A DNA stretch of 64,000 nt from assembly GCA_031213475.1 (NCBI GenBank), contig JARUPZ010000018.1, positions 8,258,406 through 8,322,405 on the forward strand, given 5' to 3'. The notes under the pieces were generated by a model. It saw only the letters and a program-made list of their open reading frames with translations. It was not told the DNA's origin and did not search any database. This DNA is from Nereocystis luetkeana (Eukaryota > Sar > Phaeophyceae > Laminariales > Laminariaceae). Below, piece after piece: positions 10,847-60,700 of the stretch. The position numbers and the translations under genes are program-made. Each line of letters opens with the position of its first letter. The first letter of the stretch is position 1.

Positions 10847-13800
10847 GTGGGCTCGGGTTTGTTTTTTTTGTGTGCCCACGCGCGCGTGCGTTGGCAGGAA
10901 GTACACAGGTATCGACTCGTCTTTCACCATTACGGCCGTTGCTCACATGTGTCACATTTTTCACTCATTTTCCTCATGTATATATCGATGCGATGGGACG
11001 AGCGGTTTTTGTTTTTTGTGTCGTTTTTTGCCGACGACGCGGGGATTGCGGCACGATGACCGGACCATTTTTTGGCGCGTGATCATCCCGAATTCTGCGT
11101 CCTGTTTATGTGTGCTTCGCGATGCGTATTGCGTAACGCCATCATCGCATGGTGCTGCTGTATATTAGAGTAGCATAGCAGTAGTGCACCCCATCTAACT
11201 TCGTTGCATGGTCGTGTATGTATGTAGCCGGCAATGGCGGCAGCATAGGTGGCACGGAGGGGTACGGCACGTTGCAACGCCTCTCGCTTCGTAGCGTCGT
11301 TAGGGACAACCGCCCCTGTATTCTGGGCTGTGCTTGTTCTCTCGTTCCCTCCCTCTGGTTGCCTTGTCCCGTTCGTGTTTTCACATGCGGTTGGAGGAAA
11401 ATTCAAGTTTAGTCGAGGGAGTGACAAGCCCGCATGGTTATACGTGGGTACCTGATGTATGACCTGCTTGTATCGCACAAGCAACCTGATACGTACGTAC
11501 AGCAGTGGTATTCATATTAATAGTACCAGGTATAGTATACGTATTCTGTCTTAGTATTTGTCTTCCCTGGTACCCATGGTACCTGGTATTGCCTATTTAT
11601 ACGTACCAGGTACCTTGTATTTTGCGTTGTGTGGGTCAAAGATGTCGGGAGACAGCACCCTCACCCCTTTGACAGACAGCAACTTTGCCTTGACTTGCCT
11701 CGAGTGGTGACACCCACCTTTCCTACCTGGTACCTGGTAGGTTTTAGTGTGAAACACTCGGCCCCATACCCTTGGCAGCGCACGCTTCGCGTTGCTTGAC
11801 ATGTCTCCTGACATCTTTGTCCCTGGTGTTGAGGAATGTCGGCTCGGAAATGCTTTCCAGCGGGTGGGTGTATTATCTTTCGTTTAAGATATTCCTACCT
11901 AACTACACACATCACTACAGCGAGAAGTTTTCCTGAGTCATTTATCCTACCTGTCGAGAAACTAAATATCTGTGGTCACGGACTTCTTGTGTGAGGCTGT
12001 TTCCTACTGGTTTGCGGTTCGATTTCGAGCTTCAGATTTGTATTTTTCGATCTCAAAAACGAATGACCCTGCTTATGCAGTCGAAATATGCAAAATCCGA
12101 CCGGAAATTTTTCGATTTGAGAATCCGATGACCCAAGTCGTTGGATTTTGGGCCAAAATCCGATGACCTGGGTCATCAGATTTTCAAATCGAAAAATGGC
12201 ATGCTCTTTAAATTCAAGATGTTATCCATGACAGCAAACAGCGGCAGGACGATCGATGAGTTGGAAGGTGACACAGCTGTATAGCGACGTTGCTTCGCGT
12301 CCGACGCTCGGGCGGCGGGCGGCGCGACCCTCCGTGGCCAGACGTCAGTCGCCTGGCGCGGGCTCGGGCCTAGAGGACGAAGAGAAGCGCACTCGGCACG
12401 CACCTCTCCGTGGATACGTACGAGTACCTGTAGGTAGAATACACTGCTGTACAGCAACAGCAGTCAGTCACAACATGGAACCCAAAACACCAAGACAGGT
12501 GGCTCTAGCGCACTAGCCACATCTCTTCGCCGCCAGACCAGAGGTGGTCAGCCTTGGCTCGGACGCTTGGGTCCTACGCGCACTGCAGCGCACCCAGCGC
12601 GTCTCTTCGCGGCGCCAAACCACAAAAACAGCAGTTGGTCTCGGCGTTTGCCCAGATCTCTACACACACAATAAATCTGATTTTTCCGCATAGGAAGGCT
12701 GTTTCGATTTGCCAACTTCACATTTGAAAATGCGATCGGGCCAAAATCTCAAGCTCAAAAATCGAACCGCATAGGAAACGGCCTGAGAGAAATACGAAAC
12801 AAACCGAAAATAATCGCAAATAATGGGTCATGGGCTGTGATTTTTCGAAGATTTTTTTTATTAAATCGCGAGAAGAATGTTTTTCGTTCGATTTGATTTT
12901 TATCTGATTGGTCGAAAACTGAGCCACCAACGTTTTGGATTGAATTTGATTTTTGAAAAAAAAAGAAGAGAACGAGTTCAACAAGAGGTATTGGGGACTT
13001 ATTTTGCTCTTCTTGTGATTCAATTTGAGGCGTTTGTTCAACTCGACGTGGCATGTTCCTGAAACCGAAGCAAGCCACGCAAACTTGGGCCGTGTCGTTG
13101 ACTGCTTCAGAGCCCCCGAGAGGCAAGGCCACCGGAGCAGCCGCAGCCCGAGGTCCGACGGCCCCTGGCAGAGTAGAACACCCGCGGCACCTGAAGAAAA
13201 ATCGAGGCCGTTGCGAACCCAATTTTGCATCCCTCTTTGCCTCTCAAACCACACGAGCACCGACCAAGTTACGACTTCGCTCAGGAGTTCGATCGCTGTA
13301 TCCCCATCGCTGCTGGCGGCGTGGGCTTTGGGGCTGCGCCAGCCACCCAAGACATCCCAAGAGCGATAGCCTCTTCGGCGGTGCCGGCAGAAATAATCGG
13401 TCGCTGGCGGCGGTGCCCCGGGGGGAGCGAGGGCGGTCGCTCGATAAGACCCATACGTGGTCATACTCTTCACGAAACTCTATTCAACTATAATCGATTA
13501 TATATTTTTGTTCAATTGCAATCAAAAAGTTTGCTCGTTAAGAGGGCCGGTCTTAACGAGGGCAAAAAAAACGAAAGAAAAAACGGAATCAAACGAACAG
13601 AGTTTTGTTTTTCGCAAAAAACAGCAGGTTGAGTCCTAACCAGAACCAAGAAACGAAAAAAAAACGAAACAAAAAGAAGCCGAGTCGATTTTTTACGCGT
13701 TGCATTTTTTCGGAATGACTCAACCGCCACAGCACGTGCTTCCCGGCGATAGCGCTCGACAGCGACGGTGGATAGGCACAACTCGCACACGTGACGCACC

Positions 13801-16800
13801 CTCCACAGCAGGCGGTTCTCGTGGTACAACCCGCTCCCTCCGGAGTGCTGTGTGTGTGTGTTCTTCACCGTTCTTTCTACCCGTCGACATCCAGCACAAC
13901 CAGTGTCAGTGCCGATTCTTCAATCCTATTAATAGAAGAGATACAAGTTCTGTGGTCACAAAGCTACGCCACAGAGATACTACGTTGCCACCTCTCAGGT
14001 ATGCAGTAAGCACAGCAGTGGGCAAAGCAATGCCATGCCATCATACTAGATACGACAGGCTTGACATACATATTCTAAGAAATAGAGACACGAAAGGAAA
14101 CGATCGAAGAGAAAACAAAAACAAAGACAAGTCGAAAGAGAAGAAAAAAAAAAAAATGGAAAAAAAAAAAATGAAAGAAAACTAGAAGAAACAATCTGTC
14201 GCCCCCCCCCCCCCGCAGGCGAGGTGGCCAACACTTGAAAAAGAACGAGCTGGAAAGCAAAATAAAAACATAACAAAAACACCACTGCTTGTAAACAGAG
14301 TAAGACAAAGAACCAAGGAAAAAATAACAAAGGGGAAATAACAGGCAGACCAAAGCCCAAAGCACCCTCCAAGTGGCGGCAGCAGTTTGTGGTACCACGA
14401 GTAGTATAGCCAGGTTCTCCCTGCTAATCCGCCTGGTACCTTGCTACCCAGACTGCCGTCTCCGCCCTGCGTTCGTCAACTATGCCCAGCCCCTTGGCGT
14501 CAGACACTACGAAACGAGCAGAGCAGGCTCGTCATCCAACCACGCCACACGACTCCTTCAATACCTGGTACGGCTTATCAATAAAAAAGGATGAGAAATA
14601 AATAAAAAGAAAATCACGGAGAATCAGCGCAAGAAAAAAAAACGAAACAAAAGGAGAAGACAAGGGAAGACCACGTTCGAACCAGCTGCACCAGTTGGTG
14701 GCACTAGTAGTATGGTCATGTTCTACTTCCTAGTCGGCCTGGTGCCTTGCTACCCTGTCTGCCATCTCCTTCCTACTTTCGTCTACCGCAGTTTCCCTTC
14801 TACTCCTGTTCCCCCCCCTCTCCGCATTCCCTTGGTCGGGTTTTCTGCCACTTCTCCTTTTGCCCCCCCCCCCCCCCCATTCCCTTGGACACCATCCACG
14901 GCGGATGCGCGGCGCTGCCTACTCATCTCAGCATCAGCCTCGTGCCACCTCACCATGAACCGTTCGGCTGCTTCAAGGATCCCCCGGTACCGCTTCCCCG
15001 CTTTTTTTGCTGCAGTGAGCCACAACGCGGTCTCAACTCCAAACACCAAGGGGGCAACTTCGGTTGACCCTTCGGTGGCTCGGAACTCCCTAAGGTCTTC
15101 GACTATGCGTCTATGCCAAGTCTTACACTGTCCGCCTGGTCTCGGGTTCTCCCCACCAGCTATCGTCCCGAACATTACCCGACTGGGTAATCGCTCCTTG
15201 CTTTGCCGTGCCACGCCCCCTGCAAAGAAGAGCCGCCGTTTACGAATGGCCGTTTCGATGCTTTCGCAACGTGTCATCTTGAGGGCCTTCGCGTACGAGA
15301 GGGTGGCATGGTCAGTACGAAGTCGGCGCTGGAAGCCAATGACTTGCAGCAGGACTTGGTGGTGAGCCGTTCGAAGCTTGGCAAGGTGTTCCGCTCTGAG
15401 GATCCACGTCACACACCCATACAGCAGGGTCTCAACTTGTGTATCGGTCATCGCTGTTCGATGGCAGACGTTTGAATGTTGAGTGGGACTCACGTCGAAA
15501 TCTATACCGCCACAGCCACTTCCTGATCCCCCGGTTTCTTACGAGGGCACCCCATGGTGATTCCCTGCCCATACGTGCTCGCGCCGTCAGCAGACGAGCC
15601 GCGTGGCAGCTACATGCACAACCTCGGCCATCGTGCGCTTGCCAACCGGTCGTAGAAACCTTATCGGAACTTCATCCCAAGGCTTCGACCTCCTATGTTT
15701 CTTTTCGACCCTGGGTATCCAATATTTCGGGTATTTGGCACACATTTCGTTTTTTTCAAGTCCTATGGGACTTAACAAAAACGAAATGTGAAACGGAGTT
15801 ATCGGGATCTCTACTTCTATTTTTTTTAATTTGACCAACAAAACTCACGTGCTCTTTAGTTCTGCTCTTCGTTTTTTATTTCGTTTTTTTTTCGTTTACC
15901 CCCGTTCGCGTTAGGACCGACTCTAGTAGAGGCCCTAAGCAAAAGCAAGAGTAATGCCGACGCACCGGGTACGAGAACACAACGCACGCCAGATACTCGT
16001 AGATAATAAATACTGCAGCAGCAGTCGATGTATCACTGCTGCTGTTGTACTTCGTACCAGTACAGCAGTAGATATATTTCGCTGGTGTTGTACTAGTACG
16101 TCGTACCAGTACATGTATATTGGATCTTCTGTTTTTTTTTTTTTTTCGCTCATCCCACTTGTTATCTTCGCACGTCTTCTTCTCTCTCTCCTTCCAACTC
16201 GTAACTCAGATCCGGGGTCACATAGCAGGCTCTCCTACCCCCTTCCCGCTACGGTACGTGCCTTCATTTTTATCGCGAGAAGATTTCAGCCTTTCCTTCC
16301 CTCGTCGACTCGCATCGAATTGTGCCTACCCACGCTGCAAGGCGCTCTCAACTACTGCTATACGGCAGCAGTGCTGTACGAGTATCCAGGAGTGGTGGCC
16401 CACTTTGTTTTCAGTATATACCTCCTCGGCGACTTACACTTTCTACATATACCAGGCCGTACCTGGTTAGTGCCTAGAGTACTTGGCTGACGCTGTATAC
16501 GTAATACCTACGAATTCAGTACCACTCTGTCCGGAAATGTAAGGAACCGTTTATTTTCATATTTATAACTGAACCATCCCTATATTTCCGGACGGAGTAT
16601 TAGTTCGTGGTGAGTCCCAGTATGATGCAGGTGTGTACGTGTGTGTGTGTGTTCTTCACATTAAACCGTTCTTTCTACCCGTCGACATCCAGCACAACCA
16701 GTGTCCGTGCCGATTCTTCAATCCTAGAAGAGATACAAGTTCTGTGGTCACAAAGCTACGCCACGGTAGACGAAAGTAGGAAGGAGATGGCAGACAGGGT

Positions 16801-16893
16801 AGCAAGGCACCAAGTCGACTAGGAAGTAGAATATGACCATACTACTAGTGCTACCAACTGGTGCAGCTGGCTCGAACGTGGTCTTCCCTTGTC

Positions 16894-16930
<37 letters not shown>

Positions 16931-19900
16931 CTCTCTTGCGCTGACTCTCCGTGATTTTCATTTCATTTTTTCTCTTCCTCTTCCTTTTCTGATTGATAAG
17001 CCGTACTCAAGGAGCCGTGTGGCGTGGTTGGAAGACGAACCTGCTCTGCTCGGCTCGTATTGTCTGACGCCAAGGGGCTGGGCATAGTTGACGAACGCAG
17101 GGCGGAGACGGCAGTCTGGGTAGCAAGGTACCAGGCGGATTAGCAGGGAGAACCTGGCTATACTACTCGTACCACAAGCTGCTGCCGCCACCTAGAAGGT
17201 GCTTTGGGCTTTGGTCTGCCTGTTATTTCCCCTTTGTTATTTTTCCTTGTTACTTTCTCCTTGGTTCTTTGTCTTACTCTGTTCACAAGCAGTGGTGTCT
17301 TTTGTTATTTCTTCTTTTTTCCAGCTCGTTCTTTTTCAAGTGTAGGCCACCTCGCCTGCGGGGGGGGGGGCACGACAGATTGTTTCTCTTAGATTTTGCT
17401 TTCATTTTTCTTCTTTTTCTTTTTCGACTTGTCTACCTTGTTTTGTTTTCTCTTTGATTGTTTCTTTTCGTTTCACTATTTCATAGATTGCGTATGTCGT
17501 GCCTGTCGTATCTAGTATGATGACATGGCTTTGCATTGCCCACTGCAGTTCACACTGCACACGTGGCAACGTAGTATCTCTGTGGCGTAGCTTTGTGACC
17601 ACAGAACTTGTATCTCTTCTAGGATGGAAGAATCGGCACGGACACTGGTTGTGCTGGATGTCGACGGGTAGAAAGAACGGTTTAATGTGAAGAACACACA
17701 CACACACACACAGAGATACTACGTTGCCACGTGTCATGTGTCGAATCAAAAGCGTCGAGTCAAACGCTTCTCAGTTGTACGTATCATGCGTACTTGATAC
17801 GTACGTGCCCGTACAGGACCAGTGAGCAGTGAGTAAGTATCCATTTACTGCCGTACCTTGTACCTTTTTACCTACGAGCACCGGTACGGGTACGATTCAC
17901 CTCTCGTACCTGTATACCAGGTATACGACGTACTCAGTATCATGTGTATGAGACCATGTGCCACGTTAGTCTACAGCAGTAGGTGTCCAATTTTTGGAAC
18001 CAAGCGCGGCTTGCTAGAGAGGTCAAAGTATTAGAACATCAAAGTAGATGAAAACGTCCATGCCCAGCCCCGGGAAGCAGCACAACAGCAGCACGTAGTA
18101 GTCTGCTTGGAGAAAAGCCTTGGAAAATGTACTATTTACGGGGGACCATAGTAAATAGAATCAATTACCAGGTACCTGGTACCTGGTATTGTTTATAAAA
18201 ATAGGTTCGAAATATATACCTGGTAGGTTTTTGTTTTCACCGTAGGTCCTATTTACTTTAAATAGGCCCTCCGTAATACTATTAATACGTGCCGGTATAT
18301 ACGAGTACGTAGGAGCACTATTAATACTATCTACTCGTACGTACTCGTATCTGGCCGTAGGTGGGAAAAGGAGGAGTACAAAAGCGGACCATCCCACGCT
18401 CCCAGCGTGAATATACTACGAGCACCAGTGCCATTGTCAGAAATAATATTCACTTGCGGTATGCCGTTTGCACCGTTGTTGATCCCCTCCCAGACGGGCA
18501 TCTATTCACCCTTTTAGGACCGCAGTCCCGTTTTGGGGACAAACTACTTGGAATTTGAGTGGTTTGTCCCCAAAACGGGACTGCGGTTCTAAAGGGGTCG
18601 TTTGCACGATGCTCGCAGGAGGGTCACAATTCGGGACGGGAGTCCCCAGCAACGGCCGGAGGCTTCGTTCTATCAACCCAAACACTTCCACAATACCTGG
18701 TACCTCGTATGGCAAGAAAGAGTGCATCGGTACATCGTAACCCTATGCCATCTGCAAGTAAGTGTTCTCAAGTTCTCACGCAACAGGTACCGTGCATTGC
18801 TGGGTTCAAAAGTGCCACGTGGTTGTTGTGTCATCATTAATTGTGTAATTTGCTTTCGGAACCTTCGTGTTAACCCTCTTAGGACTGCAGTCCCGTTTTG
18901 GGGACAAACTACTTGGAATTTGACTGGTTTATCCCCGAAACGAGACTGCGGTTCTAAAAGGGTTGACGTTTTCGTTCAATTTCGAGTGAAAAGGTTCAAT
19001 TGCTTCGTTTAACGAGACGACGAGAGCGAGACCAACTTACCCCCACATCAATGATTATAAATTTACGGTATGCCGCTTGTTCAAGAAAATTGTACCAGGT
19101 ATATCGGAAAAACTACTTCAGTTCGTACATGAAATTACGGGATAATATGATACTCCTTCTGATATAAGATATTTCAATATTACGTTGAGTACGATTCGAA
19201 TATAGTCAGATAGAGACGTGATACGATATCGCAACGCTTGCGTGTGTTGTTCGCATCAGACCGTCGTTCTTTGTACCCGTCGACATCCAGCACAACCTGT
19301 GTCCATGCCGGTTCTTCAATCCTATAAATCTTACCTGTATTCGTACGAGTATCATACTATCTCTGTGGTCACTAAACTACGCCACGAAAGATACACATCG
19401 TTTTACGATGCAGTTCCAGTTTTGCAGTTCAGAGTTCAGAGTAGACAATGCCATGGCATGGTCATGTCATCGTACTGGATACGACATGTAGATACTATTA
19501 ATATGAAAGAGAGACAACGAAAGAAAAAAACGACGTATAATGCGTACATACCAGGCACGAATTGTCCGGGTACCAGTATTAATTTTCAATAGTCTACTGG
19601 CTCCTCCTGCAGTCATCTTTATGTCCCGCCTTTCACATGCTTTAGATTGTGCTTGAAACGCTGTGTAGCACTCCCCCCTTCTGCCCCCTTGTCCGTGGTA
19701 TGCGTCACCTCTACGAGTAGGCACCTGGTACATATTATACGTGCGTAGGTGATGAAACTCTCGGAATGCTCGAGGACCGCAGTCAGTAGCTCGGTATATA
19801 GTCGGTGTGCAGCACCGGCAGCACCAGTCCAAAAGTTTTGGATCCTGTGATGGCGGAGCAGCAGCAGCAGCAGCGAGCAGCTGATGGCAGCTGATGCATG

Positions 19901-20904: not shown

Positions 20905-20935
<31 letters not shown>

Positions 20936-23900
20936 CGCTCATCCCATTCATTATCTTCGCACATCTTCTTCTCTCTCTCCTTCCAACTCGTAACTCAGAT
21001 CCGGGGTCACATAGCAGGCTCTTCTCCCCCCTTCCCGCTACGGTACGTGCCTTCATCTTTATCGCGAGAAGATTTCAGCCTTTTCTTCCCTCGTCGACTC
21101 GCATCGAATTGTGCCTACCCACGCTGCAAGGCGCTCTCAACAATTGAATCCCTTTTTTTATTTTTGCAAATAAAGTCAAAGTCCGACCCTCCTGGGGCTC
21201 GAACCCAGGACTCAAACAAGTAGAATTCGAGGTTAACCACTTGAACCACCGGGGCGACCGGCTTATAGTACGGATCCGCTTCCAGGAAACATGTGCCGCC
21301 AATAAATAGATCATGCTATATTGTAAAATTTCCGCGAATCATCTCGTCCGCGCACCTCGTCCGCGCACCTATTACGGGGGACCATAGTTAATAGGACCTA
21401 TGGTATACATAAACATCTATATATTTAACCATTTTTACTACCAACATTTGGTCCTATTAACTATGGTCCCCCGTAATACTAATAATAAGACACCTTCATT
21501 GCGACCGAGCCGTGACGTTTTTCAACCCTACTGGCAACATGAAGATGAGCTGTGCACGTAGATAATACCTGGTACAGATCAGGTACTATCTACACTGAAC
21601 AATATAGATAGATCATGAAAGTGGAAGTGGAAGTGGACGAGCTGTCCGACAGCAGTGTAGAAAAGTGTCCAAGTAAGCGACGATTCGAGAGCAGCACCCG
21701 CCATTCCGTGACAAGAAGCAGGCCTGCCCGGGATGCGGAGAGGTATAGAGGGTGTACCCGGAGTTGGGGGGAATAGAGCGCGTTTGGTTCTCGCGCTGTG
21801 GTGCGAATCGTTTTCCCACAGCTCTCGGTTTTTCCAGGCCGGGAAGGTTGCCGATACCGAATCAAGGGAGGCGTTTTTCGGAAAGATCTGGTCGAGAGAA
21901 AAAAAGCCTTCCTAAAAAAAAGATCATGTTCGACACTCTATTACGGGGGACCATAGTTAGTACCAGGTAGCTTTGTTGAATACATACCAGGTACCAGGTA
22001 GGTTTTTATGTATACCATAGGACCAAATATTTTTAGTAAAAATGGTTAAAAATATATCCTGGTAGGTTTTTATGTATACCATAGGTCCTACGTATTAACT
22101 ATGGTCCCCCGTACCAACAATATTTGGTCTCATTAACTATGGTCCCCCGTAGTAATGGCACCGTTTCTTGCCGTTGTCGAAAAAAAAAACAACGAGCGCT
22201 GACGAAAATCGATCGCCCATGTGCGAAACTCGACGCTCTATACACCTCTGTCCCTTTAAATATTTACCGTTTGTGTTGACTGTAAGTATGTAAATGGTAC
22301 CTATATTCCAGGACAGAGTGGTATTTGGTATGGATACTCCACAAAGGCAACTGCGGCAAGCACTATTAACCCCTTTAGAACCGCAGTTCCGTTTTTGGGG
22401 ACAAAACAGTCAAATTTCAAGTAGTTTGTCCCCAAAACGGGACTGCGGTTGTAAAGGGGTTAATACGTACCGCAGCAGTATGATTCGTGCGTACAGCAGT
22501 AGACCCTGCCTGGTAGACCCTGGGCCTGGCGTCGTGGGTAGTTCCGTTGAAGCCGGCGACGTATACAAAGTACAGCATTACGCGACAGTCGTTATGAATC
22601 TCCTATTTTGGCTATTACGGGGGACCATAGTTAACAGGACCTATGGTACACATAAAAACCTATATGTTTAACCATTTTAACTAACAATATTTGGTCCTGT
22701 TAACTATGGCCCCCCGTAATAATAAGGCTCGCGGCTTACCATTGCTGTGGTTTCTATTTTGATGCATGGGCTGTCCTGTAAGAGTGGCGTGTACAAGGTA
22801 TTAATATTACGGGGGGCCATAGTTAATAGGACCTATGGTGTACATAAAAACCTAAATATTTAAGCATTTTTACTAACAATATTTGGTCCTGTTAACTATG
22901 GTCCCCTGTAAATAGCTGTAAATTCTTGAACTAAAACTCGGCCTGTAGTTATTTACTCTCATTTTCTTCAAACACGTGTCACGTACCACTGCCTCATGCT
23001 CGTACCACCCCGGCATTCCGCTCCGAGGATGGAGTGGTCGGAAGGTGCGTGCCGTGATGTGTTGGTGTATCGGTTGCATCCATTCCTCTCACTGGCGAAC
23101 GGACCCCCGGCAAAACCTGCCATTTTTCTGTTGGGGGCACGCGACCACCTGCGCCACCTTACCAGTGACCTACCTACCAGGTATTAGATTTTTTGCATAT
23201 TTTTGGCGATGAGTTAATGTGACAAACATCAATGACCTACTGCTACTGCTGCTTCATACATGTACTTCAATCAACAAAACGACCTCTACGACTACCGCTG
23301 TACTATCTATTACGGAGCGAGCAGGTATGCATGCGTCCCCGACCCTCCCGGGGCTTGGCCGGGGGCGCTCTCGGCTCCGGCTCTCCCTGTTTTCTTGACC
23401 TTCACCATCACGGAGTACTCGTATTCAGTATTCAGTATCCCCGGCGGCTGGCCAGCCAGCCGTGGAAAGCCGGAAGCCGCTGGGGCATGTGGACCTGTTG
23501 ACACGCGGTTCGACTGGATGCTGTATGCTGCATGCTGCATGTCGATTTAATTTTAATGGGCTCGAATGGCACTAAGGTCGTCGCCGACGAGCGAGTCTTG
23601 CCTCTCGTGAAATATTAATGTTCCTTTGTGCTCCCCCTCCCCCGCCGCTAATACTGGACCCATTCGGGGGGGCTCACGACATTCCCCTCTCTTCATGCTT
23701 GATCCTATATGTCACGTTGGGAGAGGTGGGTGGGGGGGGGGGTGTACTCGTGTTAGGCGTGACCGTGCGTTGTCGTCTGACCATCGACCCTCGCACCCCT
23801 ACGATGCCGAGACGGAGCACGTCGGTTTTCACAGACCAGGCAGAGATTTGATTGCACCACGCGCGAGATCACCGTGAGGTTTTGGGCGACTCGCATGAAG

Positions 23901-24395
23901 GGTGAGCTGCCTCCTACTAAGGGCCGGAGGGGGGGGGATGGGGGGTGTACTCGATATCATGCATGGCTGAGTCGTATGACCATAGACCCTCGCATGCCCA
24001 CAATGAAGAGGGCCCATGTGGCACATGGCGGTGGGCATCGAAGGATGGTCTCGGCGGCAAGATGGCAAGAGAACCCCGTGAGAGAAATGCGAGCAAGCAC
24101 TGCTGTTGTCTGCGGAGTTCCAAGTGTCGACAGCCAGAGTCGGCGAGCGGGAGGGCGGGAAAGAAACGGGAACGCTCGCTGTAGTGCCCCGCGTTCTGGC
24201 GCTCCCTGCGCTCGTCCATCGTAAATCTGTGTTTCCTTTGATGTTGCACGACGCAGCTAAAGACTACTAATACTACTACTACTACTACTATTACGGGGGA
24301 CCATAGTTAATAGGACCTATGTCATACGTAAAAACCTATATATTTAACCATTTTTACTAACAATATTTGGTCCTATTAACTATGGTCCCCCGTAA

Positions 24396-24442
<47 letters not shown>

Positions 24443-25543
24443 TTTAATACTACTACCACTATTACTCCTGTATACTGCTGTAGTGCCCTCTGGCGTATAC
24501 CAGGTAACTATGTCCCCGTTACCACGCAAGACAGGATGCACTGGCATCATACTGGATCTACGGCAGCGAGCGCTGTTTCAGTCTGCTGTCCGCTGGTTTT
24601 CATCCCGCGTACGTATAATTCAACGCCGCAAATACCGCCGTGTACGTAACAGCAGTTCTGATAACAAACCTCGTCCCGATAAATATCGCAGCTCTTTTTT
24701 AATATTATTATTATTAATAGGGCCATGGGGGCAGTGAACACGCCGAGCAATGCGTGTCCTACGTCGATGAAAATATTTCTCGAGCAGATCCTGTCCAAGG
24801 CCACAACATGGCCTTCTTATTTTGGATAAAAATCTACCCGGAAACATCAACTCAAAGGTTGTGTTATCCTGAATTTTACCTATTCGATACATTCCAAACT
24901 TCGACGCTAGACGACGAGGGAAGAAGATGCTGATTTTCTTCCCGCGGTAAAATGCAAGGCTCGTGTACCGTAGCGGGGAGGGCGGAGGGAGCGCCCCCTG
25001 TGTATGACCCCGGATTGTGGATTACGACTACTACTACTACTATTACGGGGGACCATAGTTAATAGTACCTATGGTATACTTAAAAACCTATATATTTAAC
25101 CATTTTTACTAGCAGTATTTGGTCCTATTAACTATGGTCCCCCGCAATAGTAAATAGGACCAAATGCTGTTCGTAAAAATAGGGAAGTAGAAAGGTTTTT
25201 GTGGGTACCATTAATAGAGGTTCTCTTCAATATGACCCCCCGTGATGAAAGGGAGAGAGAGAAAAAAAAGGACGAAACATCATGAATGGGAACAAGAAAA
25301 AAGAAGGAAAAAAAAAGCACGTATGATGACACACCCCCCCCGAGGATAACACGCTATTAATAGGTAGCACAACGCCCAGGGTCATCACACGGGTGGTGAT
25401 ATAGCACTCCTCCATGGAAGCTACGTCGCAAGTGGTGGTGGCTTTCAGAAATGTCTCGTGAGACCCTCCGCTCGGCTTTTATGTTCCGTTCTCCCCGTTA
25501 GCTTCGGAAAAAATGTTCCGGGTGTTGAATGAAATCTCGTTGT

Positions 25544-25584
<41 letters not shown>

Positions 25585-48300: not shown

Positions 48301-51300
48301 TGAATGATATCTCGGTTTTGTCGGGGGTGTATGGTGATGGTTGGTGGTGGAATGAAGGATGGGGGGGGGGGGGGGGGGGGACGCGTGGTCTCGCTTGCGC
48401 TTCTACCTGCCGTGTTTTTTTCTTGGCTTCTGGTGGTTTGCCGGCGGTTCGGATGTCGGGTCTGCCCTTTCTTACCTTTTTCGCTCGCGAGTGAGTAAGT
48501 GACTGTGCCCGTCGTTCGGCTGCTGCGTACCCTTTTGTGTTTCTGTTTCAACCCTGTCGGGACTCCATGTAGGGGGGGGGGGGGGGGAGGGGGGGGGGAG
48601 GGGGGGGGAGGGGGGGGGGGGGGGGAGGGGGAGGGGGGGGGGAGGGGGGGGGGAGGGGGGGGGAGGGGGGGGGAGGGGGGGGGAGGGGGGGGGGAGGGGG
48701 GGGGGAGGGGGGGGGAGGGGGGGGGAGGGGGGGGGGAGGGGGGGGGGAGGGGGGGGGAGGGGGGGGGGAGGGGGGGGGGAGGGGGGGGGAGGGGGGGGGG
48801 GAGGGGGGGGGGAGGGGGGGGGAGGGGGGGGAGGGGGGGGGGGGGGACGTTAAAAAAAAGGGACGATTAGAGGAACGATCACCTTTTTACGGGGGGGGGC
48901 ATAGTAAATAGGACCAAATATTGTTCGTAAAAAATAGGTAAATATGTAGGTTTTTTGTGTGTACCGTAGGTCCTATTTACTATGCCCTCCCCCCCCCCCC
49001 CCCCCGTAAAATGGTGATGATACGACTTGGTGCCCGAGTCACCGAGCAAGGAGTCGTCATCACACGGGCGCAACATGATCCTTTACCCGTACGGTTGGGC
49101 GCTCGCATTCGAATGGTTGGTAACACGAAAAGGTATAATTTGTGTTGGTCGCTAGCCCTTATCCCTTTTAGGACCGCAGTCCCGGTTTGGGGACAAATTT
49201 ACTTAGAATTTGACTAGTTTGTCCCCAAAACGGGACTGCGGTCCTAAAGGGATTAAGAGGGCTCCCAAAAGAATCATCACGGGGGACCAAAGTAAATAGG
49301 ACCTAATATTGTTAGTAAAAGTAGGTAAATATATACCAGGTAGGTTTTTGTGTGTACCGTAGATCCTAGTTACTATGGTCCCCCGTAATAGTAGCCGGGT
49401 TGGTTTTCACCTCTTGCTTGCGTTCGATGTGGCGGGTCTTTTTTGTTGCGGGCGGCCCTTCTCGGCTCCTGACTCCTTGCTCCTCACTGGCTCAAATCCC
49501 TATCCCTCGTCCGCACATTTGTGTGTGTATTTTTTCTCCCCCCCCCCCCCCCCCGCCTTCACCCTTTCCTGCCCCCCTCCACACCCCGCGCTTTTCGTGT
49601 TTTTTTTTTTTGGATGATCTTGACAGGAGGCGTTTATCCAGTTTCTGTATCTGTTCCTGCTCCTGGGAAACTTCATTCCCGTGTCCCTCTATGTGTCGAT
49701 GGGTACGGTCAAGTTCTGCCAAGCATTCTTCATGAAGCAGGTGGGTTGTTTTGTTTTTATAGCGGTTGGTCTCGTTGGTGATGTCGGGTGTTTGTTTAGT
49801 GCTGGTGTCGATATTGCTTGGTTTTTGTTGCCTACCAGGTATGGTGTTGGTGCTTCTGGTGAAGCCGATACGGGACAGTAGTGTTGATGATTTTGTGCAC
49901 ACCTCGCAGACAGATGAGACAGATCATCTAACAGATCGTTCCCACAGTTCATGATCTAGATCGTTCAAGACAGAACGATCATCTGTATGATCTGTATGAT
50001 TTGTATGATTTGTATGATTTGTGTGATGTGTATGATTTGTATAATCTCTTGATCTCTATGATCTAGCTCATGTTGCCGGGTGGAAGCCGCTTATTCTGCG
50101 TGATCTACCGCAGCACACGTTCCCTTGGGTTGGATCCGTACTGTATATGCAGATCCCGCACAACCTCTCACAACGGCAGTCGAGGAACTAGATCATCTAG
50201 ATTATGATCTATCTGTAGCCAGATAGATCATCATCTGTCTGTCCAAGGGGGATTTTGCTTTATGGTGATGCTGACGATGTGGACGACTGGGCTGTGCTGC
50301 TTTTTGTTGGATGTGTGCGGACGATGTATTGTATGTGCTGCACGAGCTCCGTGATGGAGAGAGGTAACACAGGCGCTCGTGTTGGACATCGAACGACAGT
50401 AGCACTGCTGTAGAATGGCTTGGTAGGTGGTCCGCGTGCCTATCAAGATCAATTTCGTCGGTTCAAGTCTCACCGAGTGCATGCTCGTAGTTTTTTTTTG
50501 TTCTTGCAAAAACAAACTATACGCGGAAAGCGCGAGAGCGTGAGTTAGCTGCGTTCGATGAAAATCGACGAGCAATGGGAATACCGAACCCTATGCGCGA
50601 CAAAACATAATGGGAGTTACCGGGGGGGAGAAGGGTGGACACCTGTGACCACGGCTTGCCCAGAAGCTCGTTGTGGGTAAAACCTCCTACGAGCTAGGCT
50701 GGAAAGTAAAAGTGATGTAAAAAAAGCAAGAAAAAAACGAGATCGATACGATACCGAACCAACAGGCGTCCCCCAGTGTGGCGGTGGGGTGCCAGAGCAA
50801 CATTTCGACCTTGCTGGGGGAGACCGCCTTGTTGGTTTCGGGTTACGAGTGCAATTTTCCTGTCGCGCCGAGCGATTCTGACCGCCTTATATCGGGATAC
50901 CGCCTTGTGGGGTGGATATAACCCCTACGTACGTACTGCTGTAGGAGTAAACAATGAAGAAACATATGTGGGAGTAAACAAAAACAAGTACCAGGTATTG
51001 GATACAAGAATGATAATCTCGATATTTATATTCGGGTTATAGATCAGACTGACGATCGATTTTTGCCCATTTTTGTTTCTTGTGTGTGTGTGTGTTTTTT
51101 TTGGTTTTTTTTTTCATCGTTGCTGTGTTTTTTGTTCCGTCTTCGACCAGGACCTGGAGATGTACCACAAGGAAACGGACACGCCAGCTCTAGTGCGAAC
51201 GATGGCCCTGAACGAGGAGCTGGGACAGGCGAGTCGAGGGAAAGTGAAGTGGACGTGGAGGATGGGAGGGGCAGGGTTTCGAACGTAGTTAGGCGTTTGC

Positions 51301-51703
51301 TTCCTTCTCTGATACCACTCTCGACGTAAATGTAAGGACCCTTTGACGATGTTGTTAGTGTCTAAAAGACCGTTGAATTTTCGTCCGGAGTGGTGTAACT
51401 CTGTCCGGAAATGAAAGGACTTGTTACTCTTACGGTTGATGTATAAATGCTCCTTTATATTCCCGGGCAGTGAGCTCTGTTGTATATACGTACGTATACT
51501 ACAGTAATGCGAGGTACATGGTATAGAATGACACAAAATGGCGCACTTGTTGAGATGGAGGGGTTATGGGCGTGGCGGAGGGGGGGGGTTGAGGGAGGCC
51601 CGCCCTCCCTTCCCCTGTATTGAGCGAAACAGGGGGGGGGGGGTGATGGTGGAGATGACGATCTTGTGTTCATATTGATGAGAGGTGGGGATGGTGATGT
51701 TGT

Positions 51704-51765
<62 letters not shown>

Positions 51766-54700
51766 TGGTGTTGATATTGATGAGATCGTGATGGTGTTGG
51801 TGTGATAAATAGTGATGGTGATGATGGTAGTGATGACGGTGATGATGGTGGTAATCATGATGATGATGATGATGATGGTAGTGATGACGACGAGTTGATG
51901 CTGACGATGGTGATCCTGGTGGCGTTGATGACGATGATGATGATGTTGGTGGTGACGATGACTCTGGTGTGACGCAGGTTTCGCACGTCTTCAGCGACAA
52001 GACCGGGACGCTGACCCAGAATGTGATGGATTTCCGCAAGTGCAGCATCGGAGGCGTGTCTTACGGAAGAGGTGTGACCGCGATCGGCCGGGCGGTGGCG
52101 TCCGAAAGAGGAGATAGCATCTCGGAGGAAGATCAGGTGAGGGAGGGGAGAGCCCACCCCCCCCCCCCCCCCCCGCCCCCAAGACTACCATAGATTTTCC
52201 ACAAGTACACTCACGTTCGTATACTTCATCCGCTTTGGTAATAGTTGGTGGGATGAGACTGAGGGTTTTTTGGTTGTAGTTTCGGTTGTGTGCGCTCGTG
52301 TTGTTCATACTCTTAGCTTTGCTTTCTCCGTTTTAGTTTGTTGGATTAGTGTACTATACCTGGTAGACCTCTACCTCGTGGTTGTTTTTTTTTGTGCATG
52401 TTCCCTCTCTGTATTTTGTGTTTTCTCTATTTTTTTTTATTTTTTTTCTCTCGTTTTTTGTGTTTTTCTTTTTTCTCTCGTTCTTTGTGTTTTTCTTTTT
52501 TCTCTTGTTTTTTGTGTTTTTGTGTTTTTGTATTTTTCGTTCCAGAACGCCTTCCAGAAGGTTTTGAGCCTGCCTTGTTTGATCACGGGCTAGGGTGTGG
52601 CGATGTGTGGAGGCGATAACAACTACAACCTGTACGGGGGGGCCTAGTAGTCAATAGTGCCGGTCCCTCAATAGTGCTGGTCCCTCAATAGTGCTGGTCC
52701 CTCTATAGTGCCGGCCCCCCAATAGTGCCGGTCGCTCTATAATGCTGGTCCTCCTATAGTACCGGTCCCCCTATAGTGCCGGTCCCTCTATATTGCCGGT
52801 CCCTCTATAGTGCCGGTCTCCCTATAGTGCCGGTCCCCATATAGTACCGGTCCTCATATAGTACCGGTCCCCCTATAGTTCCGGCCCTATCATGCTGGTC
52901 CCTCTATAGTACCGGCCCCCCAGTAGTGCCGGCCCCCCAATAGTGCCGGTCGCTCTATAATGCCGGTCCTCCTATAGTGCCGGTCCCTCTATATTGCCGG
53001 TCCCTCTATAGTGCCGGCCTCCCTATAGTGCCGGTCCTCATATAGTGCTGGTCCTCATATGGTACCGGTCCCTCTATAGTGCCGGTCCCCCTATAGTGCC
53101 GGCCCCTCTATCATGCCGGTCCCTCCATAGTACCGGTCCCCCTATAGTGCCGGTCCCTCTATATTGCCGGTCTCCCTATAGTGCCGGCCCCCCTGTAGTG
53201 CTGGTCCCTCTATAGTGCCGGTCCCTCTATAATGCTGGTTCCTCTATAGTGCCGGTCCCTCTATAATGTTGGTTCCTCTATAGTGCCGGCCGCTCTCTAC
53301 GGATAGCGCCTATGAAATCGCTTGGCACATACCGGGTACGGCACTCAGTAGTATGGGACTAACCAGTGTGGCGGTGTGCGGAGTAAATAGTGCCGGCTGC
53401 CGCTATAAATTATACCGGTGCTATACATGGGCCGGCACTACTGCTGTGCTGTATGTACACCCCTATATTCGTACATCTTGTTCGGTTCTGAATACTCGTA
53501 GTACTCTGACGACGGCGGCAGCACCAGCAACGAGTCGTGTTGTACAGCATCCGCTGACTGCGCTATCAGAGCTCGGTTCGTGATTCGATCACTGTCTCTT
53601 CTTTTTTTGTTGCTGAATCATTCTTTCTGTCCATCTTATGCTTGTCCTTGTGCGCTATCCGTGTTGCTGTGGCTTGGTTCGTGATTTGTTCACCGCTTTC
53701 TTATTTTTTCTCCTTTTTTTTTTTTCTTTTATATTTTTTCCCTTTTTTTTTTCTTCTTGTTCTGTGCTTGTTGTTTCTCTTGTTCTTGCTGTCCGCCTTG
53801 TGTTTGGTGTCGTTATTGTGGTTGCGTCGTTCCTTCTGTTTAGGGTCATCCTTGTGGTTGTCTCCTCGCTCAATTTTATTTTGCGAGTGTTTTTCCTTGT
53901 TTCCGCGTTCTTGCGCCCCATCGTTTAGCTTGCACCATGTTGTTCTCGTGTTTGTTGTCATGCCGGGTCTTTGCATGGTTCGTTCTTTATTGTGCAAATG
54001 TTCGTTGATCTTCTGCGTGCTCCTTGTGCTTCACCGTTGTGCTCACGTTCGTGCTTGGTATTGTTTGCCTGTCCTTACGGCTGCAGGAAGCGGAGACCGT
54101 GATCGCGAAGAAGCCCCCAGTTCCGCACGTGCGCTTCTACGACCCTCGCATATGGAAAGACCTCGACGGAGCCAAAGGTACGAGGGAGGCAACTGATGTG
54201 ACGTGACGTATGTGACGTGACGTGACGTATGTGACGTGACGTGACGCGATGTGACGTGACGTGGAGTATGTGACGTGACGTGCATGACGTGACGTGACCT
54301 AGCAAGCAATAGGCGCTCGCACCGGAGTGGGGGAGGTATAATCATCTAATGCATGGCCGTAGTTGTATAGCCATAGACCGTCGCATCCCGACAATGCCGG
54401 GACGGAGCACGTCAGGTTTTCACCGACCAGGCAGATATTGCTTGGAGGAAGGGAAGGGGGGGTGGGAGTATTTGTGTCATTCATGGCCGTAGTCGAATGA
54501 CCATAGACCCTCGCACCCCTACAATGCCGGGGCGGAGGACGTCTTGTTTTCGCCGACCAGGCAGACCCTGCTTTCGCACCGAGCGCGAAGCGTATCGTGA
54601 GGCGTTGGTTGAATCGCATGAAGAGTGAGCTGCACCCTACTAAAAACCGTTCAAGCCGCTTGTGAGGAGGACTCGCACCATGCATGGCAGCGTCAATGAC

Positions 54701-57700
54701 GTGATTTACTTTTCATTGATTTGGGGAGGGTGGGGGGAGTTGTATAGCGTGATCGTTGGCGTTTTACGGCCGGGCGGACGGTGATTGAACACGTGCGCTG
54801 TCCCCGTGTCATGCTCTTATCTTTCCCCGATTCGTTTTGTTCGGGATGAAGTGCCTCCTGTTCTGTCCCACCTCTTCTTACCCATCCCCCCACCCCACTC
54901 AAACAGGAAGGGGATCGTAGTAGGTTTAGCTACTGTAAATAGTTTCTACGTATTACACATATGAAAAAACAACGTAATGAGCGCCCAACTGTTGGAGGCG
55001 TCTCTATCAGGAGTATGTAGGAAGGGCGCTCCCTCTCGAAAGGGATGCGTGGTCAATGGTAAAAATGACTAACACAAGCAACGAATGAATACGCCCCCAC
55101 CCCCACTCACTCACTCACTCACTCACTCACTCCCTCCCTCACTCACTCACTCACTCACACCCGTGCCCCTACCTACGCTCGACGCCCGGCCTCAGGAGAG
55201 AAACAGCGCGCGCTCCTCACCAACTTCTTTCTCGCCCTGGCCGTGTGCCACACCGTCATCCCGGAGCGAGGCGTCACTACCGCCCGCCGCCGCCGCAGCA
55301 GCCGCCGCCGCCGCTGCAAAGAGATCAGAAAAATCAGGGAGAGCCGCCGGCGGGAGAATGGACAAGACTGTCGAGAAAATCGGGGGGGCGATGGTGGCGG
55401 TGGCGGAGGCGGAGGGGGTCCGGGGGGTGGGAGGGGCAGCGGGAGCCTTGACTGTGCGGGTGGAGGTGGAGGTGGAGGTGGCGGTGGAGATGGGGGCGTC
55501 GATTGCGGGGGCGAGGGCGGTCGCGCGTTCGAGTGTGAGGACGACGACGATGATGATGATGATGGTACTGACGAGGATTGTGAGGATGATGACGTTGAGG
55601 AGGAATGTGAGGATGGCGGGAGTGGTGGCGATGAGGGCGTTGCCGACTGCGAGCGTCCGCTGCGACGACGGAGAGGAGGTGGGCGGCAACAGCAGCAGCA
55701 GCAGCAGCAGCAGCGTCGAGACAGAAGCGGACCCAAACCGGACGGGGGGAGCAAGGGCAACGGCAGCCGGGAGAGCGATCGCGCGATAGGCTGGAAGGCG
55801 CAGGCGCTATCGGGGGTAGGGGAGCGAGAGGAGGAGGGGAGGATGGCGGAAGAGGGAGAGGACGAGGAAGACGACGAGGAGGAGGAAGAGGAGGAGCCAC
55901 AGGATGAAGGACCGCCGAGGCTTTCGGCGTCGAGTCCGGACGACGAGGCGCTGGTGAGTGCATGCCGGATAGTGCCGTATGTCCTTGCCCTTGTCTCTTG
56001 TCCTTATTTTTGTATTCATTGTTGGTTTTATAGTTGCCCTTGTCCTCACCCCGACCCTACCCTCACCCTCACCGTTGTCATTGTTCTTATCCTCATCCTC
56101 ACCCCACCGTTATCCTTGTCCTTATCCTTATCGTTGTTCTTATCCTTACCCGTATCCATATGCGTGCCGTATTATTGTCCTTATCATTGTCCTCTTGCTG
56201 TCCTGATTATATCGATATCCTTGCCCTCAGACTCATCCTCTAAATTATCGTTGGGCGATTTTTTACCCGTGTCCGTTTACATACCCTTATTGCCAGTTTC
56301 GCTATCCTTCTTATCATTTTCGTCATTCTTATCGTTATCCTTATCATTTTCGTTATTGTGTTTCTGAACCTTAATCCCTGTCCTTCTGCTTATCATTTGA
56401 TTTATCCTTATTATCATCCTTATTCTTTACTTTTTCCTCGTCGTCATCCTTGTCTTCATCCTTAGTCCTATCATTATCCCTATCATGATATCCTTTTGTC
56501 CTCGTCCCTATCCTTATCCTTATCGCCATCCTCACATATGCCCTTATCCTTGTCCTCATCCTTATCCGTATCCTTATCCGTATCTTTGTCCTTATCCTTA
56601 TCCTGGTTCGTTGTCCTTATCTGCCTCCCCCCCCCCCGCTGTTTGTTGTTCAGGTCTTGGGCGCGAGACATTTCGGGATGGAGTTTCGCGACCGCGTGGA
56701 CAACTACGCCTGCGTGCGTCGATCGGGCGCGTTCTTGAAAGGCGCTCGAGGGCACTCGTCCCGCTCCAGGACAAGGGCTCCCGAAGAAAGAGGCGCCGGG
56801 CGGGCGGCAAGTGGCTGGGGCGTCGGTTCCGGCGGCGACGGAGGGTTCAGGCCCGCGAGGTGAGGTGAAGCGGGGAGTAGGAGTTGGGGCCGATGCATTG
56901 CCCTAGACGATGGATGAAAGTGCACGTGTAGGGTTATTTATCTGTAGTGGGTGGGATAATTAACTTGTTGGGGGGGGGTTCGGGCACACGACGTACATTA
57001 TGTACGGTAGTAGTATATGTATATACTTCGTGCGAGTATACACCTGGCGTGGGAATCTGGGAGAAAGGATCTTCAGGTTGTTAGGCTGTTCAGTTTTTTT
57101 CTCTGTGAAGTGCTGCTGCTTCTGCTGCTGCCAGCTTGGCGCCGGCTTTCTTCGACAAAATGGTTGAATGTTCCACACCAAATGTTAATTTACTTCTTTC
57201 GGAATTTTTTCCTTTGCGATCGGGGTTCGTGTCGACGTTGAGGTTCAAGGCCAAGCAAGTGTACTCACAAGCACGTTTGTAGCTCAGACTGGGTCAAGGT
57301 CTGCCTGCAGCCCTCGGTGCTTCTTCGGCTATTTTTGTGTGCTGTTTGTTCCAAGCGGAATTTCGGCTGACTCTTTTCAGGGCGGCGGCGACGCCGCACG
57401 ATTAATATATATATATATGTATAATATATATATACCTGGTAATATTTATACTTGACAAACGGCTTGACCTGGTAGCTTGACTGATTTCATTCAACCTGCT
57501 GCAGCGGCTCGACTAGCTGGGTGATGACCAGACCCCAACTCGAAAGGCGGGCACCCTACAGTAGTAGCAACGCACCTGATTTACACCTTTTTTTGTCTTG
57601 GAGTCAGCGTTGAAGAAAAAAATGTCCAATATTCAGCCTGAAAATCGTGCCATTCCTTTTAGAACTCCTGTCCCGTTTTGGGGACAAACCAGTCAAATCC

Positions 57701-60700
57701 GACGTAGTTTTTGTTCCCAAAACGGGACTGCTGCTTTGAGAGGGTCGAAATGATTCAGGCCGTAAAAAATCGCCTAAAAAGCATTTTTGAACGGCTAAGA
57801 AGCGTTTTTGAACGCCTAAAAAAACTGAAGAATGCACCTGATAGTAGTAGTAACTGTGTGCAATTAAGTGCCCACAAGTGAGTATTTTGTTGGATGTCTT
57901 ACCTGGTATATTTTTTTTTGTTGTGTCGAAGAAACGTCGAACGTGTTTTGCCCTCCCTGCGCTGGTATCCCCTGTGCTTGGTTCTGCAGAGGTTGTGCGT
58001 GTGTCGCATGGACGTGAAAAAAAACAAACGAGGACAGTTTAGATGAAACTGGTATTTAATAGCCGGTTACGTAAGTCTGCTTTGGTTCTGAGGAGCATAC
58101 ATAGCCTTGATGAAAAACATAAGTAACCCGTGTAGGATAAGTAACCCGTGTAGGACCGCAGCCCCATTTTGGCGACTACCTACTCGAAATTTGAGTGATT
58201 TGTGCCCAAAACGAGACTGCAGTCCTACGTAGAGGGACGAAGTGTTCACCCCCCCCCCCCCCCGATTATTTTAGAGAGTCCTTGCCGTTTCAGTGAGCTC
58301 CCAACTTTATTTTCACCATTCCGCGGAAGGGGTAAACTAAAACATCGTCGCGGATAAATAATATTGGTCCTGTTTTTTTTTTTTTGCTACCGCTCTCTCT
58401 GATGTCCAGCGCAAACCCCCTCTATGTGGACGAGCGGTACGAGGTGCTCAGGATTCTGGACTTCACGAGCGCGAGGAAGCGCATGAGCGTCATCCTTCGC
58501 GACGCCGAAGGGTGAGAGAGAGAGAGAGAGGACGGAGGGAGGGAGGGAGGGACGGAGGGAAGGACCCGCCACCCGCCGCCCGAAAATGTAGACACCATGT
58601 CCGAACGTATAAAATAGAAACAACATTTTTTTTTTCTGTCCACACTTATTTCTCAAGTTTTCGTGTACCGGTTCGAACCCGGTTCGTTTCTTCCACCTTG
58701 GTCGGGCCTGTCTGTGGCCGTGGTTTACTCCGTCTTCTTTTTTACCAGGTACCTGGTACCCTGGTATATACTTACAACGTTTAGGGCCGCGGTCCCGTTT
58801 TGGGGATAGACTACTTGGAATTTGGCGGGTGTGTCCCTCTAGACAGGACTGCGGTACTAATACGGGGGGGCTCATCAAATACCGGTAGGACCTACGGTAC
58901 ACACGAAAACCTATACCAGGTATATATATATATATATTATATGTATATATCGCTATTTTTACGAACAATTAGTAGGTCCTATTTGCTATGGTTCCCCATG
59001 ATAGAGTGGTCTATTTTTTTCCGAAGGTTTAACATTTTTACTTACGCCGTCAGGGGAGCGCACGACCGACGAACAGAAAACGAGACAACACCTCGAAAAA
59101 AGACCCACGGGAACGAGTGGTGAGATGGGATCTCTGTAATTTTGGTACGAATGGAAAACAGAACACGGCGTTTCAACTCGATTTTAGTATACCCCCTGTC
59201 CGACGTGCTCCGTCCCGGTGGTGTGTTGCGCAAACAGGGATGCGACGGTCTATGGTCATACTACCGCGGCCATGCATGATATGAATACCCCCCCCCCCCC
59301 AGCTCACCCTTCATGCGACTCGCCGGACACCTCACGGCGCTTCGCGCTTGGTGCAAGCAATGTCTGCCTGGTCGGTGAAAACCCGACATGCTCCGTCCCG
59401 GCATTGTGGGGATGCGAGGGTCTATGGTCATACGACTACGGCCATGCATGAGATGGAGTACATCTCTCCTATCGAGTACACCCCCCCTCCGCCACTCTGT
59501 CTGGGTCTCGAAAATGGCAGTGGGGTTCCGATGTCCTTTTTCGTGTCTTCCTGCAGCAGTAGCAAACAGGTTTCATTACGTAAGCTGGACATGAATTATC
59601 GCGACACCAGCTCTACCTTTTTAGCCTTTTTTCACGTACGCTTTCACGGGGGGGGCATATTAAGCAGGACCTGCGGTGCACACAAAAACCTATGTATTTT
59701 CCGCCGTTTTTACTACCAGGTACGTGATAGCGTTTGGTCCTATTTACTATGATCCCCCGCAATAGCACGTACTTTTGGCGGACAGCTTTTGTTTGGGGTG
59801 ACACGTGGGGGTTCAGACAGCTTGGCAACGCGTTTCCTCAAGAGTTACAGGTATGGCTCGGAACAATAAGCCGCCGAATAAATGTTGCCAATTTTTTTTT
59901 TTTTTTTTTCTTCTTTTTTTTGCTTATCCCATTTATTATCTTCGCCCATCTTCTTCTCTCTCTCCTTCCAACTTGTAACTCAGATCCGGGGTCACATAGC
60001 AGGCTCTTCTCCCCCCTTCCCGCTACGGTACGTGCCTTCTTTTTGATCGCGAGAAAATTTCAGCTTTTTCTTCCCTCGTACGCCGGTTAATATGAGGGGT
60101 CGTTTGTATACTACGGTAATGTGTAATACAAAAGGTCCTTACATGTAGAGACAACGTGGCGAAAAGGGCTTTACACCTCTAGCAGAGGGACAAAGGGCGA
60201 ATGTGCCTCCGAAAAATTTCGGATAAACCCGTAAAAAACCAATATAACCCACAGCCGGAAACAGAAATCGGAGGAATCCGCCGCGCCGAAAAATCCCGGA
60301 GGAACGAATTCGCAGACGAAATAATCTCGGGGGTCTTGTGTGTGCTCCCACTTCTTTTTTTTTATCAAACAAGTTGGGTCAGGCGTTACGTTTCTTCGGT
60401 ACAGCAGTAGCGCCGGTCGCTGTATATATAGTGCCGATATGTATGCGCCAGCCAATAATACCGGCATTGTTATGGCGGCACTATACACTCTTTGCTCTGC
60501 CACGCTGGTGACTCCCGTCTGTGCCGAGCGATTCCACAGACACTGCTGTAGCGGGCAGCCAGTAGGGAGGGACCACTACTTCTGGCATAAACAGGGTCAA
60601 AACAGGGCTACCTATTATTCGTGCCTATTATTGGGCTGTCTAGCTAGACGCGATGTCCGAGGCGGTGTATTTCTAGAAATGCTCACGGTTTTTGTCGGCC

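Follow-up and report, generated by a model that had tools for sequence, protein, structure and literature searches.

A dense record of the word TACC(A/T)GGTA in the genome of the brown alga Nereocystis luetkeana, very probably repair scars of an excised Stowaway-like mariner element

The stretch of DNA analyzed here, which we call the window, comprises the 64,000 nucleotides from 8,258,406 to 8,322,405 on the forward strand of contig JARUPZ010000018.1 (Nereocystis luetkeana, Phaeophyceae; assembly GCA_031213475.1), and contains 48 copies of the word TACCWGGTA (W being A or T)—25 reading TACCAGGTA and 23 reading TACCTGGTA—of which 43 lie within 11520–60000. On the evidence assembled below, that word is very probably the repair scar of an excised TA-inserting, Stowaway-like Tc1/mariner miniature inverted-repeat transposable element (MITE), designated M3, with the ends CCACTCTG...CAGAGTGG, longer relatives with CCA...TGG ends being possible further sources; and we use the term scar in that sense. 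The original prediction, made from the letters of the window alone, had reported more than 40 such sites, and its coordinates were accurate to within about six bases (11603 for 11604, 58913 for 58914, and 58876 for the variant TACCGGTA at 58880), the example it placed at 44391 having its motif at 44388. The scars of the window are listed here with no strand assigned, each entry being based, unless otherwise stated, on a motif scan plus the shuffle count given below.

2635–2643, scar TACCTGGTA
2844–2852, scar TACCTGGTA
9204–9212, scar TACCAGGTA
9613–9628, two nested scars, 7 bp apart, with opposite centre base
11524–11532, scar TACCAGGTA
11580–11588, scar TACCTGGTA
11604–11612, scar TACCAGGTA
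11724–11739, two nested scars
14562–14570, scar TACCTGGTA
17915–17923, scar TACCAGGTA
18166–18188, three nested scars (CCAGG, CCTGG, CCTGG)
18217–18225, scar TACCTGGTA
18694–18702, scar TACCTGGTA
19093–19101, scar TACCAGGTA
21566–21574, scar TACCTGGTA
21961–21969, scar TACCAGGTA
21985–22000, two nested scars
23175–23183, scar TACCAGGTA
24498–24506, scar TACCAGGTA
26703–26711, scar TACCTGGTA
29155–29163, scar TACCAGGTA
29912–29920, scar TACCAGGTA
30603–30611, scar TACCAGGTA
31699–31707, scar TACCTGGTA
33281–33289, scar TACCAGGTA, within the composite M3 at 33174–33370
34188–34196, scar TACCTGGTA
34215–34223, scar TACCTGGTA
34311–34319, scar TACCTGGTA
34721–34730, variant scar TACCATGGTA, full CCA plus TGG (motif scan)
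42968–42976, scar TACCAGGTA
43081–43089, scar TACCTGGTA, absent from the aligned copy in locus L009
43282–43290, scar TACCTGGTA
44388–44396, scar TACCAGGTA in a copy of the repeat M1 (AAATA-CCAGGTA-GGACC), other copies being empty (alignment)
45546–45554, scar TACCAGGTA in an M1 copy (M1 alignment)
49334–49342, scar at the central TA of an M1 copy, other copies being empty (alignment)
49833–49841, scar TACCAGGTA
50989–50997, scar TACCAGGTA
52357–52365, scar TACCTGGTA
57433–57441, scar TACCTGGTA
57900–57908, scar TACCTGGTA
58743–58758, two nested scars with opposite centre base
58880–58887, variant scar TACCGGTA (motif scan)
58914–58922, scar TACCAGGTA
59714–59722, scar TACCAGGTA in an M1-like copy (M1 alignment)

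That the motif lies far above chance, as had been claimed, was upheld: in 100 dinucleotide shuffles of the window the word averaged 0.32 copies with a maximum of 2, and none of the shuffles reached 48. Across the genome (465 Mb in 1,987 contigs) we counted 182,395 copies (91,240 and 91,155 on the two strands) against 1,744 of the reversed word (861 and 883), which comparison extends the enrichment beyond the window. Twenty ten-kb regions, chosen at round-number places on large contigs, held 87 scars with at least one in each region, a density that extrapolates to about 202,000 per genome; and those regions together with the window (264 kb) contain 135 exact scars, or about one per hundred TA dinucleotides. 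Among all the words of the form TA-N5-TA, CCAGG was the most enriched in a sample of 279 kb (147 versus 2.7 expected under an order-2 Markov model), which sample includes five 3-kb loci chosen for holding the motif; upon removal of those loci the figures for the 264 kb were 135 versus 2.4. Open frames of at least 150 codons hold 32 of the 135 scars and 24.6% of the TAs, those of at least 200 codons six scars and 8.5% of the TAs. Mild enrichments of TACAGTA (93 versus 42) and TACSGTA (69 versus 38) were also seen in the 279-kb sample, which words might represent 3-bp scars from elements ending in CAG and CGG; insertions of CAGTA appeared in self-alignment at window positions 39021 and 60977.

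Forms with a single mismatch numbered 128 in the 264 kb, where about 55 would be expected, alongside the 135 exact copies. This excess points to decay, and hence to scars that are inherited; if all of it were decay, the mean divergence would be near 6% per site, although CCCGG and CCGGG, with nine copies each, may be repair variants rather than decayed forms. That decayed scars exist speaks, moreover, against their being made anew in every generation, whether somatically or by a programmed process. Such decayed scars also bear on the notion that the motif is a linker, an adapter, or some other artefact of library or assembly: the word is indeed very uniform, but its decayed forms, its presence in every one of the 20 regions, and the TA duplication described next leave that explanation with next to no credibility.

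Each scar amounts to a 7-bp insertion that turns a TA into TA-CCWGG-TA, and nested scars step by 7 bp with mixed centre bases. When the joined flanks of 144 motif sites were aligned to the sample, the second copy of the repeat, where present, often read a single TA, as in M1, at L019:2187/L001:1501, and at L008:1501. In counts made without requiring the motif, a CCWGG-type sequence—two or three of them decayed, as judged by eye—made up 10 of the 14 insertions of at least 5 bp in 48 copies of M1, and the self-alignments of the sample yielded 50 insertions of 7 bp versus 38 of 6 bp and 36 of 8 bp, the exact motif occurring in 14 of those 50. The flanks of 127 scar arrays differ from one another and 120 of the 135 scars lie outside M1, which gives no support to the idea that the word merely forms the centre of some longer repeat whose flanks are fixed, an outcome that the original prediction had named as fatal to its proposal. 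What the flanks do share is a palindromic preference, with few As at +1, T at +6, and A or T at +7.

The fullest record is found in M1, a MITE of about 100 bp, perhaps longer, with the repeated ends CGGGGGACCATAGT. The copy that served as the query for the insertion census lies in the window:

21373–21475, + strand, M1 MITE copy without a scar

With the flanks of the central TA matched exactly, the genome contains 3,845 empty M1 sites and 1,035 with an insert of 3–30 bp, the reversed control giving none; 21% of these matches are thus altered at that TA. The empty matches are much denser at 15–21.9 Mb of contig C1 than in the first 15 Mb of that contig. Of the 1,035 inserts, the first 100 listed (all from contigs C1–C3) include 71 with TACCWGGTA, in 10 of which it is nested, and 59 of +7 bp; the single scars at the first TA, read relative to the orientation of M1, comprise 39 CCAGG and 12 CCTGG. 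By eye, we sorted the remaining 29 into 15 close variants, five decayed CCWGG, and nine others, the variants being CCGG (three), CCATGG (two), CCAG or CTGG (three), CCCTGG (two), and CCA, CCGGG, CCAGGG, CCAAGG, and CCTAGG (one each). The nine others include CTTCGAAG and CTCCGGAG, and CTCCGAG between TAs was also seen at the M1 TA; these resemble scars left by further families, ones whose ends are CTTC or CTCC.

The occupied state was found upon a search for the M1 flank joined to the M3 start (AAAACC-TACCACTCTG), which gave 11 matches genome-wide, against one in the control, all 11 loci being fetched. At L052, L060, and L062 a whole M3 of about 80 bp (TA-CCACTCTG...-TA) lies within M1, with a TA at both ends and M1 on either side, one right-end base of the M3 being changed at L062; L053 is arranged likewise, but with the second TA changed and the left flank decayed; and L057/L063 carries an element of about 940 bp whose terminal inverted repeats (TIRs) match at 22 of 24 bases. 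The other six of the 11 loci lack M1 on both sides. Empty, occupied, and scarred states are accordingly all present at one homologous TA of M1, the sites compared being homologous copies of a repeat and not alleles. The two filled-and-empty pairs of M1 that the original prediction had named were both recovered, together with further pairs, and the aligned empty copies read one TA, not the TA-less sequence that would have spoken against it.

These states bear directly on the possibility that the word is a functional palindrome, such as a protein-binding site, maintained by selection. Its symmetry around a single W and its very high frequency would suit such a role; the empty, full, and scarred states nevertheless speak against a functional palindrome as the sole cause, as do the occurrence of the insertion in only one of several aligned copies with the TA duplicated, the 7-bp nesting, the excess of decayed forms, and the length variants at one site, and we regard that origin as highly improbable, although some of the scars may be used as such sites.

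A second explanation would have the scars spread mainly by the copying of M1 and other repeats already scarred, with few excisions. In its favor, M1 constitutes 2% of the 264 kb yet holds 15 of the 135 scars, and the 39:12 bias in the centre base at the M1 TA may follow from inheritance. The remaining 120 scars, however, are outside M1; most motif sites had no second aligned copy among the matches listed; several of 20 scarred M1 copies, fetched from the 51 single-scar places listed, bear different further scars at other TAs; and one and the same site shows CCAGG and CCTGG alike, as well as mixed nested scars and the minor products. Copying as the main source consequently appears improbable.

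The candidate source, M3, inserts at TA and has ends like CCACTCTGTCC(G/C)GAAATATAAG; and since it is short, with terminal inverted repeats and a TA duplication, it can be called Stowaway-like. By eye its CCACTCTGTCC...AATATAAG seems to resemble the grass Stowaway consensus. The end word TACCACTCTG occurs 5,814 times in the genome, versus 549 for its control. Of 40 collected copies, 18 measure 83 bp from TA to TA and 11 belong to a longer repeat with an M3-like start and only a weak match at the right end. The window contains the following copies:

16520–16598, + strand, M3 whose right end is decayed (TIR matches used for the outer limits)
22241–22323, − strand, 83-bp M3 copy from TA to TA, right end decayed
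33174–33370, + strand, composite M3, TACCACTCTG...CAGAGTGGTA, with a scar inside
46397–46471, + strand, M3 whose right end is decayed (TIR matches used for the outer limits)

A self-alignment of the sample for large TA-flanked insertions returned M1 only, and an inspection by eye of the sequences in the sample that start with TACCWGG disclosed no family with CCAGG ends.

From the end sequences and the biochemistry of mariner elements, a pathway can be proposed. M3 inserts at a TA and duplicates it, as its copies within M1 show, and upon leaving would let both TAs stay, as the three states of the homologous site suggest. Cleavage three bases in from either end of the element would leave 3-nt 3' CCA overhangs on both flanks, which overhangs, if joined with an overlap of one base, would create an A:A mismatch to be filled in and then resolved by replication or mismatch repair to CCAGG or CCTGG. 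Joining without overlap and with full fill-in would give CCATGG, and trimming would give CCGG or CCA; and since the scar adds a TA, the site could be targeted again, with nested scars as the result. The one-base overlap would have to be strongly favored over the other joins. The TAC(A/T)GTA of Sleeping Beauty is made by the same mismatch logic. Among the relevant precedents, the cut that Mos1 makes in the non-transferred strand lies three bases in from the end of the element (PMC4344528), and breaks of the Osmar/Stowaway type in yeast are closed mainly by nonhomologous end joining (PMC4561436).

The minor products CCATGG, CCGG, and CCA, which ends in CCA and TGG predict, were indeed observed at the M1 TA; CCAAGG, CCTAGG, CCCTGG, and CCAGGG require bases additional to, or changed from, those ends. 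The scars therefore bear the marks of a Tc1/mariner footprint: the TA duplication is retained, the sequence enclosed by the TAs comes from the ends of the element, and the element itself is present at a homologous site. The proposal that the sites are imperfect excisions of a TA-targeting Tc1/mariner-type element thus gains support from the three states at the M1 TA and from the predicted minor products, while its arithmetic—left CCA plus right GG, or left CC plus right TGG—fits the scars.

Several findings weigh against M3 as the source. The ratio of 39 CCAGG to 12 CCTGG at the M1 TA is unlike a random resolution of A:A, a bias that may stem from inherited scarred copies of M1 or from biased repair; and a tree of M1 copies (28 rows, five of them empty), though of little power, displayed no clustering of the scarred ones. 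In a search for sequences starting with CC behind the M1 flank (198 matches, control 13), M3 was recognized once in the first 100, although that search, being restricted in its last letter and stopping at C20, misses further M3 copies such as L052, L060, and L062; by eye those 100 included no other element family, the rest being scars, decayed copies, and singletons. For the flanks of extant M3 there were 34 distinct half-sites among 80, the longer M3-like repeat contributing some of them; these flanks agree with those of the scars at +1 (A 0.09 versus 0.07) and, approximately, at +6 (T 0.38 versus 0.47), whereas they diverge at +2 (G 0.53 versus 0.26) and are weaker in A/T at +7 (0.71 versus 0.84). 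A pattern search for a host repeat that in one copy bears M3 and in another lacks it found none, a result that is uninformative; no autonomous element with the TIR of M3 itself was found; the DDE_3 model (PF13358) had no match among 30 candidates; and the published footprints of Stowaway and of ZB are shorter, at 1–4 and 0–3 bp, respectively (PMC1925063, PMC7913693).

Candidate transposases were present. The HTH_Tnp_Tc3_2 model matches 24 places in the genome, and two loci, L124 and L125, carry uninterrupted frames of 437 aa (from GTG) that are 90% identical to each other, a third locus having a kindred frame whose identity is 72% in the part that was aligned. The two frames score 32.1 and 31.4 bits with HTH_Tnp_Tc3_2 (Pfam cut-off 31.5) and 26.5 and 23.5 bits with DUF7769 (cut-off 27); the IS630 model of NCBIfam reaches E 7e-10 on L125, which value is under its cut-off, and phmmer against the PDB gave Mos1 at E 0.03 only. 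With D182, D303, and D343 invariant, 39 residues between the latter two, and helix-turn-helix regions, the frames are, as predicted from their sequences, mariner-type transposases; they would presumably take the label DD39D, a type linked with plants. Their element likewise ends in CCA...TGG at a TA: its end word has 13 matches (control 5), not all of them true ends, of which six read GTCGGACTGG-TA and one GGACTGGG-TA, one of the six adjoining M1-like sequence.

On contig C29, 13 of the HTH_Tnp_Tc3_2 matches lie at about 3.89–5.05 Mb, mostly at intervals of 80–105 kb, although one interval is about 200 kb; the first five are on the + strand and the next eight on the − strand, each has one internal TAG, and the array resembles a long unit that has been repeated and inverted. 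We also considered pogo elements as the source of the scars: DDE_1 gave 28 matches, but the three loci fetched had no clear TA-flanked TIR, and this candidate was rejected.

The element of the 437-aa transposase exemplifies a further explanation, that the scars were left by the excision of some other TA-inserting family with CC...GG ends (in this instance CCAGTCCGAC...), M3 being a minor contributor. Its ends at TA and the one copy against M1-like sequence, the differences between the M3 and scar flanks at +2 and +7, and the small number of M3 copies seen at the M1 TA all lend this idea some weight. Yet that element is rare when its end matches are set against those of M3, its end words among the fetched loci occur at the two transposase loci only, and M3 is the sole family recognized by eye at the M1 TA; we consequently judge another family to be a rather unlikely main source, and retain M3, with its possible longer kin, as the preferred one.

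In the 264 kb there are 11 M3 loci versus the 135 exact scars, a ratio of about 12 scars per locus. We doubt, but would still mention, that excision has become decoupled from reinsertion, a resident and perhaps host-kept mariner-type transposase clearing M3 from the genome and leaving some 12 scars for each M3 locus; were this so, the scars would be the trace of a standing germ-line process rather than of a passing burst.

Stowaway and mariner footprints as such are already known; the aspect that may be new is the density of one scar. As in the grass Stowaway footprints, the TA is present on both sides with short end fragments in between, several products occur per site, and fresh insertions stand beside old footprints; there, however, five putative footprints of 1–4 bp were described in one intron, whereas here a single 5-bp product dominates, with 182,395 exact copies (PMC1925063). 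Osmar 14T32 in yeast (PMC4561436) and ZB in human cells (PMC7913693) likewise leave a footprint between duplicated TAs from element-derived overhangs, although that of ZB measures 0–3 bp and comes from a cell assay, whereas ours, of 5 bp, is a genomic record. In two rice species small mariner insertions and excisions were similarly read from genomes, with 21 and 31 excisions outnumbered by insertions 2.8:1 and 2.6:1 (PMC4423477); there the comparison is between recent relatives, while here the scars exceed the M3 loci about 12-fold, so that, the time scales being different, we offer this as a contrast and not as a test. For another brown alga, Ectocarpus, almost 12,000 copies of Tc1/mariner MITEs in 17 families are described in a paper whose main text contains neither the word footprint nor the word excision (PMC12477816). 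The open-access listings that we searched contained no account of any genome in which a single scar is so dense.

Studies of footprints usually deal with dozens of them, whereas here some 180,000 of one kind are accompanied by empty and occupied homologues, and about one-fifth of the exact-flank M1 copies are altered at one TA, mostly by elements now gone. Such a record would allow a sequence-based measure of the rates at which cut-and-paste elements leave or stay and of the TAs they favor, would show what germ-line end joining does to mariner-type breaks, and would supply dense insertion characters for phylogeny.

Among the other features of the genome, PF19114 (EsV-1-7) matched all 150 of the candidates scored, out of 1,722, a family whose expansion in brown algae has been described (PMC7457493), so that these matches, too, point to a brown alga as the probable host. 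In the window itself, an open frame of 643 aa with a reverse transcriptase domain, from a LINE-like element, is located at 5245–7176, tandem arrays are present at 46497–46939 (32-bp units) and 52654–53289 (17-bp units), and a G-rich run of 275 bp occupies 48572–48846.

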